Below, in pieces: positions 52,632 to 59,436 of a DNA stretch of 64,000 bases; position 1 is the first letter of the stretch, and every line of letters begins with the position of its first letter. Made by a program: the position numbers and the translations under genes. Source of the stretch: Pseudodesulfovibrio profundus (GTDB lineage: Bacteria; Desulfobacterota; Desulfovibrionia; Desulfovibrionales; Desulfovibrionaceae); NCBI RefSeq assembly GCF_900217235.1, contig NZ_LT907975.1, forward strand, positions 620,001 to 684,000, given 5' to 3'. The notes beneath the pieces were generated by a model, which saw only the letters and a list, made by a program, of their open reading frames with translations, had not been told where the DNA came from and made no database searches.

Positions 52632-52907
52632 TCAAACGAGTTGGGCAATCCCCTTGAACACCTCATGCCCACTGTCGTGCCGCTCAACAACTATTACGTC
52701 TTCCAACTTATCAACTTGCTTGACCATCTGATCCAAGGGCTGGGCCACATCAACAAGCAGCCAAATTTTACTAATCTTTCCACCATTGACGGGCATACAG
52801 GCAATACCCTCGACGTTGTATGCTCTACGGGCAAAAAGCCCGCAAATGTGTGACATGACGCCGGGATGGTTATTCACAGTCAGTTCAAGAACAGTTTGCT
52901 TAGGCAT
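52632..52907 (-). CDS. ilvN: Acetolactate synthase small (regulatory) subunit
   Basis: A 91-residue single ACT-domain regulator of acetolactate synthase (TVLELTVNNHPGVMSHICGL at residues 5-24, FARRAYNVEGIACMPV). It is the short IlvN type, as in E. coli IlvN, and gives valine feedback control. The start ATG 52907 lies inside the end of ilvB (8-nt overlap), so the two are translated together. Confidence 0.93.
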   Translation of the reverse strand: MPKQTVLELTVNNHPGVMSHICGLFARRAYNVEGIACMPVNGGKISKIWLLVDVAQPLDQMVKQVDKLEDVIVVERHDSGHEVFKGIAQLV

Positions 52908-54576
52908 GGTTTTCACCTCCAATCATTTCCGAATTGGCAGCCCCAGGAGGAACCATGGGGTACACAGGTTCATCCGCACTTATTGGTACATGAATAAGTG
53001 CCGGCCCTCTCGTACTCAAAGCTTCTGCAAGCATATCCTCCGGATTGCCTTCATCAGCAAAGTCATAGGTTGCTATGCCAAACCCTTTGGCAATGGTCAC
53101 AAAGTCAACCCGCTTCTGGTAATCAGAAGCGTAATAGCGCTTGCCATAAAACAAATCCTGCTGCTGACGCACAAGACCAAGTGCATTATTATTAGTCAAA
53201 ATTATCTTAATGTTAACATCATTTTCCATGGCGGTTGCCAGATCCTGAATATTCATCATTATCGAACCATCGCCAGTGAAACAAAGAACAGTGCTATCAG
53301 GTGAGGCCAAAGCCGCTCCAATAGCCGCAGGTACGCCAAACCCCATCGTCCCCAATCCACCAGAGGTCAACCAGCGACGAGGCTTAGAGAACGGATATGC
53401 CTGTGCCGTACGCATCTGATGCTGTCCCACATCCGTACAGACTATAACATCATCTCCTGCAAGTTCAGCCGCCTTGCAAATGACACCGTACGGAGATGTC
53501 GCAGTATCGGCACCAGGGATAATCATGGGGTGCACTTCTTTCAGGTTTTCAATTTGGTCCAACCAATTTGCCCTATCCTTCGATTGGATCATCGGAATCA
53601 ACGATTTCAGGACCTCGGCGATATCGCCAGTGACAGAAGCGTGCGCAGTCTTTATTTTATCCAACTCACTGGGATCGATATCGATATGTATGATTTTGGC
53701 TTGTGGACAGAACTTAGCAACTTTACCGGTCGCCCTGTCATCGAAACGAACACCGACAGCTATAAGCAGATCGCACTGCTCCAACGCCATATTCGTATAT
53801 CGGGCTGCGTGCATACCTAACATTCCAAGGTTCAGAGGGTGGGAAGAAGGAATAACACCCAGTCCCATAAGTGATGTGGCTGTTGGTATAGCCCCTGTTT
53901 CCGCCAACTCAACGGCTTGCTCCGACGCCCCGGATTGAATGACTCCCCCACCCAGATACAAAATTGGACTCTGAGCTTCGTTTATCATCTTTGCCGCCTT
54001 GCAAACTTCTGCACCAAGAACATCGGTACAGTCATTTCTACATCCTGGCTCTGGCCAGGATTCAAACTCGTATATCGCTGTCTGCACGTCTTTGGGGATA
54101 TCCACAACTACAGGGCCAGGCCTACCGGAACAGGCAACTCTGAAAGCATTGGGAATAACGTCAAACAACTCTTCTATGGAGCGGACAAGATAATTATGTT
54201 TTGTGATAGGAACGCTCAGTCCATATGTGTCAACTTCCTGGAAAGCGTCTGTTCCTATCATGTTCAGTGGGACCTGGCCGGTGATGCAAATAATGGGTAT
54301 TGAATCGAGCTTGGCGTCTGCAATCGCAGTCAGCGTGTTTGTTGCACCTGGCCCAGAAGTAGCGAAAAATACGGCGGGTTTTCCAGTTACTCGAGCCATC
54401 CCTTGAGCTATGAACCCTGCCCCTTGCTCGTGTCGTGTTAAAATGTGCTGAATTTTCTCACTTTTGCCCAGTGCATCGTACATGGGCAGATTCGCGCCAC
54501 CAGGAATTCCGGCTATTGTCGAAATCCCTTGCCTCTCCAACAATTTGATAATGATTTCCGCGCCATTGAGTTTCAT
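52900..54576 (-). CDS. ilvB: Acetolactate synthase large (catalytic) subunit
   Basis: First common enzyme of valine, leucine and isoleucine synthesis: condenses pyruvate to acetolactate, using thiamine diphosphate and FAD. At 558 residues it has the usual length. N-terminal PYR domain: GIPGGANLPMYDAL, HEQGAGFIAQGMARVTGKPA with the catalytic Glu about 46. Central domain: GVRFDDRATGKVAKF. C-terminal domain: the diphosphate-metal motif GDGSIMMNIQDLATAMENDVN (about 437-457) and NNNALGLVRQQQDLFY. AGGAGG precedes ATG 54576. Expression is likely controlled by the leader peptide and attenuator at 54612-54778. Confidence 0.95.
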   Translation of the reverse strand: MKLNGAEIIIKLLERQGISTIAGIPGGANLPMYDALGKSEKIQHILTRHEQGAGFIAQGMARVTGKPAVFFATSGPGATNTLTAIADAKLDSIPIICITGQVPLNMIGTDAFQEVDTYGLSVPITKHNYLVRSIEELFDVIPNAFRVACSGRPGPVVVDIPKDVQTAIYEFESWPEPGCRNDCTDVLGAEVCKAAKMINEAQSPILYLGGGVIQSGASEQAVELAETGAIPTATSLMGLGVIPSSHPLNLGMLGMHAARYTNMALEQCDLLIAVGVRFDDRATGKVAKFCPQAKIIHIDIDPSELDKIKTAHASVTGDIAEVLKSLIPMIQSKDRANWLDQIENLKEVHPMIIPGADTATSPYGVICKAAELAGDDVIVCTDVGQHQMRTAQAYPFSKPRRWLTSGGLGTMGFGVPAAIGAALASPDSTVLCFTGDGSIMMNIQDLATAMENDVNIKIILTNNNALGLVRQQQDLFYGKRYYASDYQKRVDFVTIAKGFGIATYDFADEGNPEDMLAEALSTRGPALIHVPISADEPVYPMVPPGAANSEMIGGENHA

Positions 54577-54611
54577 CTTCGCCTCCTAGCTCGCCGGCCC
54601 GGCAGGTAAAG

Positions 54612-54645
54612 AAAAACCCCGCCGGTCTGCACCGGCGGGGTTTTG
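54612..54645 (-). terminator. Attenuator terminator of the ilvB operon
   Basis: On the minus strand AACCCCGCCGGT, a 4-nt loop GCAG, and ACCGGCGGGGTT form a perfect 12-bp stem followed by a T-run. It lies 26 nt past the leader-peptide stop and 35 nt before the ilvB start, the place of a classic attenuator. Confidence 0.92.
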
Positions 54646-54670
54646 ATACTCTATTTATGCAACAATCCCA

Positions 54671-54778
54671 CTATGGTGCGTCCATTTCGACATCACCTAC
54701 TACTACCTGCACTACTACAGATACGCCGACCACTAGGACGGAGTTGGGAAGAAGGATATTGTTGTCGAAAGTACGCAT
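54671..54778 (-). CDS. Branched-chain amino-acid leader peptide (ilv attenuation)
   Basis: A 35-codon frame too short for usual gene finding. It starts at ATG 54778 (AAAGG upstream) and stops with TAG at 54671-54673. The peptide contains ILL at 8-10 and then 11 valines, in runs such as SVLVVGVSVVVQVVV. In all, 15 of 35 residues are Val, Leu or Ile. A terminator hairpin and the ilvB gene follow directly. This is the arrangement of ilv/ivb leader peptides: ribosome stalling on Val codons when the charged tRNA is scarce would prevent the terminator from forming. The valine bias suggests that valyl-tRNA is the main signal. Confidence 0.9.
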   Translation of the reverse strand: MRTFDNNILLPNSVLVVGVSVVVQVVVGDVEMDAP

Positions 54779-54808
54779 AAAAAAACCTTTTTGATTTAAT
54801 TAATAATT

Positions 54809-54837
54809 TTCATATTCGGAATACTACCCTTCGTCAA
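54809..54837 (-). promoter_or_regulatory. Promoter of the ilv leader
   Basis: On the minus strand TTGACG (54837-54832), 17-nt spacer, TATGAA (54814-54809). Transcription would start about 25 nt before the leader ATG. Confidence 0.6.
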
Positions 54838-54861
54838 GACCAGATCCCAATTTACTTTGAT

Positions 54862-55101: not shown

Positions 55102-57603
55102 TCACTTCTTTTTTGAAGAAGACTTCTTTTTAGAAGTCGCTTTATTGGACTTTTTGTCGTCTTCATCCTTCCCATACGCCATCAATTCATCAACAAGGCT
55201 CTTCAGTTTTTCATCAACCAAGCCATTAATGGAATTCTTGGGATACTTGCCGTTTTTACCACGTCTTCCAGCGTTTACGCCTGTCAGAATTTTGATTCCT
55301 TCATCAATGGTCTTGACCGCCCAAATGTGGAACTTTCCATCTTTGACAGCGTCGATCACCTCATCGCGAAGCATCAAATCCTTCACGTTCGGATGTGGAA
55401 TCATCACGCCCTGCTTGCCTGTCAGACCAGCATTCTTACAACAAAGGAAGAACCCTTCGATTTTCTCATTTACGCCACCGATGGGCTGAACCTCTCCATT
55501 CTGATTCACAGACCCTGTCACGGCGACATCCTGACGCAACGGCTTCCCTGAAAGGCTGGACAGGAGCGCATACAGCTCGGTCGAAGATGCGGAATCACCA
55601 TCGATACCACCATACGACTGTTCGAAGGCGATACTTGCGGCCAATGAAAGCGGCTTATCCTGGGCAAAACGACTCCTGAGATACCCGGAAAGGATCAGCA
55701 TCCCCTTATTATGCGTTGGCCCGGACATATCCGCTTCACGCTCAATATTAATAATACCTTCCTTGCCGAGAGCTGTAACAGCCGTAATCCGAGCGGGTTT
55801 TCCAAAGGCGTAGTCACCCATTGAATAGACAGCCAGACCGTTGACCTGTCCTACAGCCTCGCCGTCCGTATCCACAAACAGACTGCCACGGTCAATCATC
55901 TCCTGAATACGCTCTTCGATCTGATTGGAGCGGTACACCTTGGCATACACCGCTTCCTTCACATGTTCGGCAGTGATGATTTCACTGTCAGACCGAGAAG
56001 CAAAATAATCTGCTTCACTGATCAAGTCACTGAGTCCAGGGAAGGCCGTAGATATTTTCTCCTGTCGTCCAGCCCATCGAACGCCCTCTTCCATGACAGC
56101 TGAGATTCCACTGATATCAAAGGGCTTCAGTTCGTACTTGTCCACTTCGCTTTTAATGAATCGAGCAAACTGGTGAACGGAGTCATCATTAATATCCATA
56201 CTGGATTCATAGTCAGCACGAACCTTGAATATTTTGGGAACATCCTCGTCGTAATGCTTAAGCATCATGTAAAGATATGGACTACCCAGAACAACGACTT
56301 TGACGTCCATATCAATAGGCTCAGGCTTTAACCCTGTCGCGCTGATGAAGTAGTAGGGATCATATGTCTCGATTTCGATCTGCTCGGTTTTCAGAGAGCG
56401 CTTGAGTGTTTGCCATACGCCCGGCTCAAAAATGGCATCCATCAGATTGATAACCAGATACCCGCCATTGGCTTTTACAAAAGAGCCGGCTTTAATTTTC
56501 GAGAAGTCGGTCTGCCACCCACCAGTTCGGTCCTGAACCCGTTCAATACTTCCAAACAAATTACGATACGTCGGGTAGGACTCGACTATGACAGGCGGTC
56601 CCTCGGATTCAACATTATCAACCAATAAATTGACTTGATAGGGTCTGAAAACCATTTCAGGAGAAGGACCTCCCATCATCATGCCAGGGAAAGGTCCCTG
56701 CTTGGGTGGGCCACCGAGAGCCTTAATGGCATCAAGCTCATCAGCCATATTCTCAAGCACACTATCCAAATACCTTAGAACTTTTTTATCTGGATACTTT
56801 TCCCTCAAAGGTTTCAGGAAATCTTCAGCAAGCGATGTGAACATGAGCCTGTCGATCTCATCATGTTTTTTAACCACCTCTTTCTGTAGATTTTTGAGTT
56901 CATTGACTATGTTGTCGATCTCTTCTTTAAGCTCAAGCCGCTTCGCCTTAAGTCGCTCATATTCATCTTTGGGGAATCTACCTTTCTCAACCATCTCCTC
57001 CAATTCAATCAACCGCTTTGGCTCACCATCAACCAAAGGAACCACATCCGGGCGCTGAATGGGCCCCATTTGCATTCGGACTACTACCAGCCCGGTATCC
57101 TTCACCTGATCTTCAATGGCTTGATAAAATGCCATGATCTTTTTCTCATGAGCTTCGGCAATCTGATTTTTGCGAGCGATATAGTCTTCACTTTCAAACA
57201 GCTGTGGAACTTCCCGTTTCACATTGTCTAAAAAGTCCTGCATGTCCTTTTTGAACTTGCTGCCTTCCCCAGACTTGAAACGCAATAAAATGGGTGCTTC
57301 CGGGTGTTTGAAATTATTAACATAACACAGGTCACAAGGCGTTTTAGCCTTGTCAGCCATCTCACCCAGCATTTTTTTGACTGTATCCAGACGCGCCGTG
57401 CCAGGTTGCCCTGTCACAAAAATATTATACCCTTTCTTTACCATTCCCATACCAAATCGGAAGGCTTCCACTCCACGCTTCTGCCCTATGATATCGGTAA
57501 GGGGTTCAAGGTCATCCGTTGTTTTAATTTTGAGTTGCTTTGAGTTAAGGGTCCATTTCATTTTTTCAACGGGAACTTCATTGGGTGTCTTCTTTGTCGG
57601 CAT
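55102..57603 (-). CDS. Lon-like ATP-binding protease (LonB/AAA_32 type)
   Basis: A 833-residue protein from ATG 57603 (GGGAG upstream). The N-terminal half is an AAA_32-type domain (DIIGQKRGVEAFRFGMGMVK, then VTGQPGTARLDTVKK) with a coiled insertion (about 190-260). The C-terminal half is a Lon protease domain with the catalytic Ser in GIDGDSASSTELYALLSSLS and the catalytic Lys in GGVNEKIEGFF. The P-loop reads GQPGTAR, lacking the usual GK, although Arg may stand in. The tail is Lys/Ser-rich (KKSNKATSKKKSSSKKK). It probably degrades damaged proteins and is followed upstream by hsp20, 11 nt away, so they look co-transcribed as a stress pair. Confidence 0.88.
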   Translation of the reverse strand: MPTKKTPNEVPVEKMKWTLNSKQLKIKTTDDLEPLTDIIGQKRGVEAFRFGMGMVKKGYNIFVTGQPGTARLDTVKKMLGEMADKAKTPCDLCYVNNFKHPEAPILLRFKSGEGSKFKKDMQDFLDNVKREVPQLFESEDYIARKNQIAEAHEKKIMAFYQAIEDQVKDTGLVVVRMQMGPIQRPDVVPLVDGEPKRLIELEEMVEKGRFPKDEYERLKAKRLELKEEIDNIVNELKNLQKEVVKKHDEIDRLMFTSLAEDFLKPLREKYPDKKVLRYLDSVLENMADELDAIKALGGPPKQGPFPGMMMGGPSPEMVFRPYQVNLLVDNVESEGPPVIVESYPTYRNLFGSIERVQDRTGGWQTDFSKIKAGSFVKANGGYLVINLMDAIFEPGVWQTLKRSLKTEQIEIETYDPYYFISATGLKPEPIDMDVKVVVLGSPYLYMMLKHYDEDVPKIFKVRADYESSMDINDDSVHQFARFIKSEVDKYELKPFDISGISAVMEEGVRWAGRQEKISTAFPGLSDLISEADYFASRSDSEIITAEHVKEAVYAKVYRSNQIEERIQEMIDRGSLFVDTDGEAVGQVNGLAVYSMGDYAFGKPARITAVTALGKEGIINIEREADMSGPTHNKGMLILSGYLRSRFAQDKPLSLAASIAFEQSYGGIDGDSASSTELYALLSSLSGKPLRQDVAVTGSVNQNGEVQPIGGVNEKIEGFFLCCKNAGLTGKQGVMIPHPNVKDLMLRDEVIDAVKDGKFHIWAVKTIDEGIKILTGVNAGRRGKNGKYPKNSINGLVDEKLKSLVDELMAYGKDEDDKKSNKATSKKKSSSKKK

Positions 57604-57614
57604 TCGCAGGCTCC

Positions 57615-58031
57615 CTACTTTTTCTTGATTTGAATCTTTTGACCACTCTGGGTCGGACACTTGGGTAGTCGCACCTCAAGGATTCCGTCGTCGAACTCTG
57701 CCACCACTTTATCGGGGCGAATAATGCAAGGTAACTTAACTTCCTTTCTGAATGTCCTTGTTTCTCTTCTGCCCTCACTGACTTCAACGGAATGAGTAGA
57801 AATGATTAAATCTCGCTCGTGGACAGTCACGTTCACATCCTCCGGGTTCATATTCCCCATTTCCATATGAACGATGAGCGTTCCACCTTCTTCTCGAAGT
57901 TCCAAATCCCCTGTCATGCGACAAACCATGGACGGCAAATCGAAGTCGGTACACAAATCATCAAACAAACGATCCATCTCACGCCGCATCCGGACTATTT
58001 CGTCCTGACTCCAGCTTTTCAAATCAGCCAT
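57615..58031 (-). CDS. Hsp20-family small heat-shock protein
   Basis: A 138-residue alpha-crystallin-domain chaperone. The core (about 38-130) has GTLIVHMEMGNMNPEDVNVT and REVKLPCIIRPDKV-like strands (RTFRKEVKLPCIIRPDKVVA), with the C-terminal GILEVRLPK motif. The N-terminal part is short (MADLKSWSQDEIVRMRREMD). It holds unfolded proteins until other chaperones or the neighbouring Lon-like protease act. The start follows GGAAAGGAG. No heat-shock promoter was identified in the 130 nt before the IS. Confidence 0.92.
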   Translation of the reverse strand: MADLKSWSQDEIVRMRREMDRLFDDLCTDFDLPSMVCRMTGDLELREEGGTLIVHMEMGNMNPEDVNVTVHERDLIISTHSVEVSEGRRETRTFRKEVKLPCIIRPDKVVAEFDDGILEVRLPKCPTQSGQKIQIKKK

Positions 58032-58168: not shown

Positions 58169-59436
58169 GAGACCTCTGCGCATCCCCTTTTCGCGTCCGT
58201 GCCTTGCGCTCCGCACCCAATTTGATGTTCTGACCGCACCCCAGCTTGGGCTCATTCCCGGCCTTTTCCTGCCATTTCTGGCCGAAATGCCGGATTTTGG
58301 ACGCACCTCTCCCTTCAGGCTCGCGCCAGTCGAACAGCTTTTTTCAAATTGAACGCCATGGCGAGGATGTGGAACTCTCCCTCCACCTTCTCACGACCCA
58401 CGTATCGGGACCGAAAGAATGCGTAGCCACGTTTGAGTGTGCCGAAGGCCCGCTCGACTATTTGCCGAATGCTGCTGATGTCACGGTTGCGGGTCTTTTC
58501 GAAGTCTGTCAGCCTGCCGCCACGAGGCGTCTTGTCCATGGTTCCGTCCTCCAAATCGCGATCAAACAGAATGTCCCGGTTCTTCCCGCTGCAATAGCCC
58601 TTGTCCGCATAAACCCGTGCGCCGGGATCAAGGCCGACGCCATTCACGAGCCGCTCGAATTCGCCCGTGTCCGAATGGTTCGCGGGAGTGATGTGACCAC
58701 AGAGCAGAAACCCGTCTCGACTGTCCGTCGCGGCATGGAGCTTGTAGCCGTAATAGGCCCGATTTCTCTTGCGGAGCCAGGCCGCCTCCTCGTCATCCGA
58801 ATAGCTGACCCGGCAGTCCACCGGCCCATCCTGTTCTTCGGCGTCCTCGGAACGGTCCTCAGGCATCACGTCGATAACCTTGCGCGGCCGCCGCTGCGAC
58901 TCGACTACCGAGGCGTCCACCACGGCTCCCTCACGGACAAGAAGCCCTTGTCCTTCAAGCTGGCGGTTAAGCATGTCGAGCAAGGAGTCCAGCACCTTCA
59001 GGCGGATCAAACCGTTACGGAAACGGCATATGGTGGTCTCGTCCGGCACGTCGTCCTCGATGGAAAAACCGGTAAATCTGACAAAGGAGAGCCGGTCGAG
59101 CAGCGCCTGCTCCACGCCCGGATCACTCAGGTTGTACCAACGCTGCAAGAGCAGAATCTTGAACATCGCCAGAGGCGGATAGGCGGGATTGCCCACGGCG
59201 TTGGCCTTGCGCCTGATCTTCTTGCACAGAAAGGCGTTGATGGGCTGCCAGTCGATGAGTTCGTTGATCTCATCCAGAAATGTGGTCTTGGTTCTGCGGT
59301 GCCCCAGGAAGTAATCACCCAACCGAGGTCCTTTCTGCCGAATAGCCATGCCTTCCTCCTTTGGATGGAGAAATAATAGCATAATAAATCAAATAGTTAA
59401 AGAGTAAAAGTGTGGGATTTGCCGTGCAGAGGTCTC
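58169..59436 (-). mobile_element. IS5-family insertion sequence
   Basis: A 1268-bp element whose ends both start GAGACCTCTGC (58169 and, as complement, 59436). It carries one transposase gene. No clean target duplication is visible (TCTC left, TCTA right). Its right end lies within the codons of a response-regulator gene, which it truncates; nothing of that gene is seen beyond the left end, so a deletion may have accompanied or followed insertion. Confidence 0.88.
58315..59349 (-). CDS. IS5-family transposase
   Basis: A 344-residue DDE transposase (start ATG 59349 after GGAGGAAGGC). It has the DUF772-type N-terminal domain (NPAYPPLAMFKILLLQRWYN, VPDETTICRFRNGL) and the DDE core: VVDASVVES (first Asp), YADKGYCSGKNRDIL (second Asp), and ISSIRQIVERAFGTLKRGYA (Glu in the Y/R-x-E motif). 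The frame is intact. Confidence 0.93.
   Translation of the reverse strand: MAIRQKGPRLGDYFLGHRRTKTTFLDEINELIDWQPINAFLCKKIRRKANAVGNPAYPPLAMFKILLLQRWYNLSDPGVEQALLDRLSFVRFTGFSIEDDVPDETTICRFRNGLIRLKVLDSLLDMLNRQLEGQGLLVREGAVVDASVVESQRRPRKVIDVMPEDRSEDAEEQDGPVDCRVSYSDDEEAAWLRKRNRAYYGYKLHAATDSRDGFLLCGHITPANHSDTGEFERLVNGVGLDPGARVYADKGYCSGKNRDILFDRDLEDGTMDKTPRGGRLTDFEKTRNRDISSIRQIVERAFGTLKRGYAFFRSRYVGREKVEGEFHILAMAFNLKKAVRLARA

Follow-up and report, generated by a model that had tools for sequence, protein, structure and literature searches.

The acetolactate synthase I operon ilvB-ilvN of Pseudodesulfovibrio profundus is preceded by a valine-rich leader frame and an intrinsic terminator, and the end of the leader covaries with the terminator strand with which it can pair. 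This element is very probably a ribosome-mediated transcription attenuator sensing charged valyl-tRNA, which would be of the ivbL kind and probably a homologue of ivbL; ilvBN would probably be switched on only when valine is short. The element lies in the window, which is the whole stretch of 64,000 nucleotides analysed here. Judged from its sequence, it appears to be a known kind of attenuator far from the known hosts, and looks like the E. coli ilvB switch in distant bacteria. Ribosome-mediated attenuation before ilvB-ilvN had been proposed in the first-pass annotation of this DNA, and the proposal is supported by the conserved frame and hairpin, the covarying antiterminator and the valine bias.

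Leader, terminator and genes in the window

The order on the minus strand is TTGACG, TATGAA, AAAAAGG, a 35-codon frame, a hairpin with a T run, ilvB and ilvN, and the window contains a single attenuator module. The features are as follows.

54832..54837, minus strand: -35-like hexamer TTGACG of a probable promoter (all 10 aligned genus members have CTTGAC)
54809..54814, minus strand: -10-like hexamer TATGAA, 17 bases from the -35 hexamer (alignment of genus members, by eye)
54786..54792, minus strand: probable ribosome-binding site AAAAAGG of the leader (sequence; the genus members in the alignment have AAGG or AGG)
54671..54778, minus strand: leader peptide frame of 35 codons from ATG to TAG, MRTFDNNILLPNSVLVVGVSVVVQVVVGDVEMDAP, read from 54778 to 54671 (sequence and conservation)
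54689..54739, minus strand: control region of Val codons, V14 to V30 of the leader
54612..54641, minus strand: intrinsic terminator (attenuator), with an 11-pair stem at 54641-54616, a 4-base loop and a T run at 54616-54612
52900..54576, minus strand: ilvB, acetolactate synthase I large subunit, 558 aa (NF006016, 948.9 bits, cut-off 870)
52632..52922, minus strand: ilvN, acetolactate synthase I small subunit, 96 aa (NF006036, 142.5 bits, cut-off 128)

The leader has 11 Val, 3 Leu and 1 Ile among its 35 residues, exactly as first annotated. It was the sole case with at least 8 Val in 16 residues among 651 frames of 20-60 aa, and none of 5000 dinucleotide shuffles of 54577-54861 produced such a frame; Val makes up 7.1% of the residues in the 38 long frames of the window. 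Six of the 11 leader Val codons are GTA, a codon that accounts for 13% of the Val codons in the long frames. CTTGAC is found upstream of the leader in all 10 aligned genus members, and by eye TA follows 17 bases on in nine of them. These conserved motifs speak for a transcript that would start upstream of the leader. A consensus promoter scan, which demands T at the last place of the -10 hexamer, found no site.

The window hairpin reads CCCCGCCGGT-gcag-ACCGGCGGGG, and is followed by TTTTT. The first-pass annotation described a perfect 12-bp terminator and then ilvB. A strong terminator before ilvB is indeed present; the length was only roughly right, because the stem counts 11 pairs including the closing A-T, or 14 with the flanking A and T runs. 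The next gene is ilvB as stated there, and then ilvN, which overlaps the end of ilvB; both are above the curated model cut-offs. The window IlvB and IlvN are 60% and 57% identical to their E. coli counterparts, respectively. The second ilvB of the same genome (L002) is without such a leader.

Several neighbouring genes are also encoded on the minus strand. A LonB/LonC-like ATP-dependent protease (55102-57660; domains AAA_32, LonC_helical and Lon_C) lies shortly upstream of the ilvBN promoter region, and an IS5 family transposase (NF033581, over cut-off) is located at 58315-59382. A flagellin N-terminal domain protein (PF00669; 51617-52456) comes just after ilvN.

Conservation and valine bias in the family

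IlvB was found at E <= 1e-180 in 130 of the 288 family genomes, and upstream DNA was taken from all 130. The leaders were chosen by Val density, so control regions were needed; L132, where upstream sequence is lacking, was dropped from this comparison (n=129). A Val-rich frame was present in 121 of the 129 loci, compared with 0-8 in nine control sets of 75 to 130. Both together, the frame and then a terminator, precede ilvB in 115 of the 129, the window's locus included, against 0-2 in the controls (0/129 reverse complements; 0/130 at each of four places inside ilvB; 0/75 further upstream; 0/129, 0/129 and 2/129 in three shuffles). The search in relatives, which the first-pass annotation had suggested, therefore found the frame conserved together with the hairpin. 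In genus g34 (G196-G212), 15 of the 17 ilvB matches show one stop codon, with all three kinds represented, and this probably reflects an earlier C-terminal end than in the query.

By rule, 124 of the 130 family loci have a terminator between the leader and ilvB. Ten of 145 loci lack one by rule, namely six family loci, two Klebsiella loci, the Pantoea locus and the paralog L002; in the six family and two Klebsiella loci, the hairpin is visible by eye. In alignment A1, which consists of 60 rows chosen by us and excludes the tandem loci and the lineages with a different loop or peptide end (e.g. L049, L061, L084, L093, L129 and L133; most of the excluded loci are in the duplex test below), 95.4% of the terminator cells are paired (89.8% in shuffles), and 46 cells have changed on both sides (13.1 in shuffles).

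Mean identity among 27 genus members is 70% in the leader codons -26 to -4, 92% in the antiterminator strand and 42% in the following spacer. The reading frame was analysed in 150 related pairs of these members, which are not independent of each other; L007, L032 and the genus members with a divergent ilvB were excluded. In the true frame, the synonymous share of single-base codon changes was 0.39 vs 0.29 expected, and in the two shifted frames it was 0.24 vs 0.23 and 0.17 vs 0.23. The third codon position was no more variable than the first (624 vs 667 differences).

At least 4 Val in 10 residues occur in 122 of the 130 leaders, and the remaining 8 have 3. Over the last 35 residues, Val accounts for 24.2%, Leu for 9.0% and Ile for 4.3%, and the valine bias noticed in the first-pass annotation is thus real. 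Counted back from the stop, codons -9, -10 and -11 are Val in 73, 81 and 81% of the 130 leaders, and a ribosome stalled this far back should not cover the antiterminator strand. The Leu and Ile codons of the window leader, together with the answer of E. coli ivbL to Val and Leu, would suit an attenuator sensing Val, Leu and Ile alike, or chiefly Leu; the valine excess over the family and the Val triple at -9 to -11 make this unlikely, and valine is preferred here as the sensed amino acid.

The codon choice is also biased. GTA is the rarest Val codon in ilvB (6%, 335/5245) and the commonest in the leaders (39%, 409/1057; 130 loci), and in the 27 genus members it makes up 146/267 leader Val codons vs 45/1027 in ilvB. 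A leader preference for a codon that is rare in genes bears on the choice of control codons.

Antiterminator pairing and the proposed switch

The pairing features of the window are as follows.

54667..54679, minus strand: antiterminator 5' strand GCACC-AUA-GUGGG (codon 34, codon 35, the stop codon and the four bases after)
54629..54639, minus strand: antiterminator 3' strand CCCGC-C-GGUGC (terminator 5' arm and loop)
54675..54697, minus strand: possible 1:2 (protector) hairpin, GGUGAUGUC...GACGCACC (minimum-energy fold)

Folding for an antiterminator had been suggested with the first annotation, and an antiterminator was found, with covariation in a duplex test over 56 loci and in the 60-row alignment. 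In the window, the terminator's 5' arm and loop offer a pairing partner for the last leader codons, the stop codon and UGGG, in a duplex with two helices of 5 pairs. The A before UAG is unpairable, and 21 of the 60 rows are likewise unpaired there.

The duplex test covered 56 non-redundant loci of the 135 with a terminator by rule. The cognate duplexes had a mean of -23.41 kcal/mol vs -19.74 (sd 0.34) for permuted pairs and -16.73 for shuffled strands, and none of 20,000 permutations was as low. The own strand ranked first in 5 of the 56 loci and within the top ten in 29, and in one locus it came last; for L138 the strand was taken at the stop of the frame, so a likely pairing segment further upstream was missed. 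Cognate pairing was not favoured in two leader segments just upstream (+0.9 and +0.4 sd). One control, the stretch following the terminator, did give a small cognate advantage (-2.4 sd, 43/5000), and a small part of the signal may therefore be shared descent.

On the 60 aligned rows, 92.8% of the antiterminator cells pair, compared with at most 61.8% in slid versions and 91.3% in shuffled rows, the latter being so high because the letters vary little; 14 cells have changed on both sides vs 4.7 in shuffles. Changes in the loop are accompanied by changes in the leader end. For example, the loop GGCUU of L084 is matched by AAGCC in a leader whose peptide ends with KPEGRL, and the loop GGCAUUCCC of L081 is matched by the leader sequence GGGAAUGCC. 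The peptide ends with AP in 55 of the 130 leaders and with AS in 23; since the leader end pairs with the terminator, the conserved AP end is best read as an RNA constraint. The protector hairpin is present in the window fold; over 48 loci, a conserved hairpin of this kind was not consistently present (mean z -0.53, 16 loci under -1).

The usual stop codon is lost or moved in L032, L100, L138, L144 and L163, yet by eye these loci retain the antiterminator strand. L032 and L100 lack the stop codon altogether: their frames continue past this point, and the RNA strand is preserved. The RNA is thus conserved beyond the exact stop, as might be expected if it bound a metabolite or protein and the frame were translated only incidentally. 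This explanation is very improbable: the Val-containing frame still runs through in all five loci, the GTA enrichment in the leaders points to translation, and Rfam offered no family at its gathering score for the window element.

In that Rfam 15 search, the best family was His_leader (RF00514), which was ruled out (26.3 bits vs 49, with a leader without His). For the window's own locus (L001), the E. coli locus, L097 and L139, the element likewise remained below every gathering score; the only hits over the gathering score in these four loci were istR and a tRNA, both outside the element.

The preferred reading is that of a translating ribosome controlling the terminator. RNA polymerase would start upstream of the leader. 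With ample valine, the ribosome would traverse the Val codons to UAG and cover GCACC-AUA-GUGGG; the terminator CCCCGCCGGU/ACCGGCGGGG would then form, and transcription would end before ilvB. When valyl-tRNA is short, the ribosome would stall in the Val run, where the last three consecutive Val codons are 9 to 11 codons from the stop. This would leave GCACC-AUA-GUGGG free to pair with CCCGC-C-GGUGC, so that no terminator would form and ilvBN would be transcribed. The window antiterminator is modest (-18.5 kcal/mol) and the terminator is stronger (-24.5 kcal/mol); such a switch would therefore have to be kinetic.

Distribution and comparison with known leaders

Model R1 was built on the 60 rows of A1, and hence its own rows match by construction. 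At E <= 1e-8 it gave 85 matches in the 288 family genomes, many of which are model rows or near them; 81 lie directly before ilvB (by eye), and the other four (G007, G020, G021 and G155) lie before pieces of ilvB. At about 1e-7 and above, ordinary strong terminators appear: five of the six places read (L202-L206, reaching 40-45 bits) are not before ilvB, and the sixth (L201) is. These matches, and the strength of the window's terminator on its own, would suit an ordinary terminator that ends an upstream transcript without regulation and has a frame before it by chance. Such an explanation is hardly credible, however, since both the reading frame and the positions of Val are conserved, the terminator covaries with the strand opposite it, and the controls gave 0-2 of up to 130.

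The element was also looked for beyond the family. R1 at E <= 1e-7 gave 10 matches in 395 phylum genomes, two of them new (G589 and G362). The match in G589 is before an ilvB that is 68% identical. In G362 (L216:1417-1600), which belongs to another family of the phylum, an attenuator with the leader MNRDVHSPNTMLPIRLALLGVGVGVRVLDAAVP lies before ilvD (dihydroxy-acid dehydratase); this ilvD scored 600 and 580 bits on two ilvD models, both below the cut-off because the locus ends inside the gene. IlvB was found at E <= 1e-180 in 13 of 297 genomes, six in the window's family and seven in other families of the phylum, and those seven have a Val-run frame and terminator by rule.

Two Val-rich frames, each followed by a terminator, were observed at most about 370 bases upstream of ilvB in L078, L082, L098, L099 and L146. 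The first four belong to the window's genus and have a divergent ilvB, and R1 recovers both of their modules; L146 is from another family. In nine of these ten tandem modules, the antiterminator strand prefers its own terminator to the other one; the exception is module 2 of L099 (-24.4 with its own vs -24.6 with the other terminator). Modules in series represent a natural test of the effect of a doubled attenuator on the response curve. Doubled leaders for one amino acid were not found in the available portions of the openly licensed literature on tandem attenuators.

Model R2 has 56 rows, A1 minus four Enterobacterales rows. It placed the element correctly, at 36.7-42.9 bits, in five of six Enterobacterales loci (E. 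coli, Enterobacter, both Klebsiella and Proteus); the Pantoea plasmid locus reached only 11.5 bits. The best match in a control of 40 kb of E. coli DNA containing leuL and ilvIH was 12.9 bits. Bits alone are insufficient for homology with E. coli, since the terminators not before ilvB reach 40-45 bits with R1.

In the IlvB tree (57 rows), the Enterobacterales are placed beside G305, from another family (support 91/96), among the phylum rows. Many inner forks are weak, and the sampling comprises one phylum, the Enterobacterales and one Treponema; a transfer of ilvBN between phyla is therefore suggested at most. The scan of named genomes gave this single Treponema locus (L004, Treponema sp. MAG), in which the frame MKLNFSNTLLVVLVVLKV and a terminator occur 122-179 bases upstream of a more distant ilvB. 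It is perhaps a further attenuator outside the phylum.

The chances seem evenly balanced for a broader reading, in which a single RNA family would have accompanied the acetolactate synthase I operon from one phylum to another. The element would be old and widespread within the phylum of the window, and ivbL one of its late branches; the valine attenuator would have travelled with the operon between phyla, and would be modular, doubled or placed before ilvD. Leader-peptide attenuators are easily thought to arise repeatedly; here the end of the peptide, its stop codon, the antiterminator and the terminator seem to have been passed on jointly, along with the operon, across a very large distance. 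The 60-row alignment, with its compensatory changes, could seed a covariance model for this family, to which Rfam 15 was blind here, and annotators could then call such leaders.

The main comparative study, by Vitreschak et al. in 2004, reportedly names gamma- and alpha-proteobacteria in its abstract. No ilvB leader in Desulfovibrio or its phylum was described in the openly licensed literature, as far as its accessible text extends: ilv, valine and leader peptide are absent from the available part of PMC545781, ilvB and Desulfo are absent from that of PMC2965389, and that of PMC4833913 yielded no such leader.

Candidate ilvB leader peptides of Actinobacteria, in which short frames containing codons for Ile, Val and Leu are combined with a terminator, appear in the accessible text of PMC1262725, and an ilvBNC attenuator of Corynebacterium glutamicum in that of PMC11857589. 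As far as these texts show, such frames and a terminator before ilvB are shared with the window, whereas the operons differ (ilvBNC and others). The tandem attenuators of the Salmonella mgtCBR leader respond to two different signals. In the available text of PMC3641672, that leader has tandem attenuators with two short frames. Frames and attenuator structures are thus doubled in one leader, as in five relatives of the window; however, the Salmonella genes are different, and the window relatives carry Val leaders in both frames.

The closest comparison is E. coli ivbL (NC_000913.3). Its ilvBN promoter is under CRP control. Both peptides have a Val run and end with AP before UAG (VVVGDVEMDAP in the window and VVVVVGNAP in E. 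coli), the leader stop is about 100 bases before ilvB, and the same two genes follow. In each, the AP codons can form an antiterminator by pairing with the terminator in its 5' arm and loop, and the terminators of E. coli and the window, CCAAAACCCCGCCGGCGCAAACCGGGCGGGGTTTTTC and TCAAAACCCCGCCGGTGCAGACCGGCGGGGTTTTTC, have nearly identical letters. The elements of Klebsiella (two records), Enterobacter and Proteus are alike to ivbL. The first-pass annotation had pointed to enterobacterial attenuation of this operon; beyond that, the window's element has a sequence similar to that of its enterobacterial counterpart. E. coli cells that have lost RF3 show lower expression downstream of ivbL when grown in rich medium, and the authors ascribed this to a longer ribosome stay at the stop codon (PMC5373646, available text). 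The two elements also differ: by the grouping used, the window belongs to another phylum than E. coli; the Val codons are mostly GTA in the window, whereas GTG and GTC are used in ivbL; and the terminator wins in the window fold, whereas the antiterminator wins in that of E. coli. The Val-run frame, the terminator, the antiterminator at the leader stop and both ilvB-ilvN genes were all found in the window and, formation in vivo apart, its element appears to fit the ivbL type on pairing and covariation.
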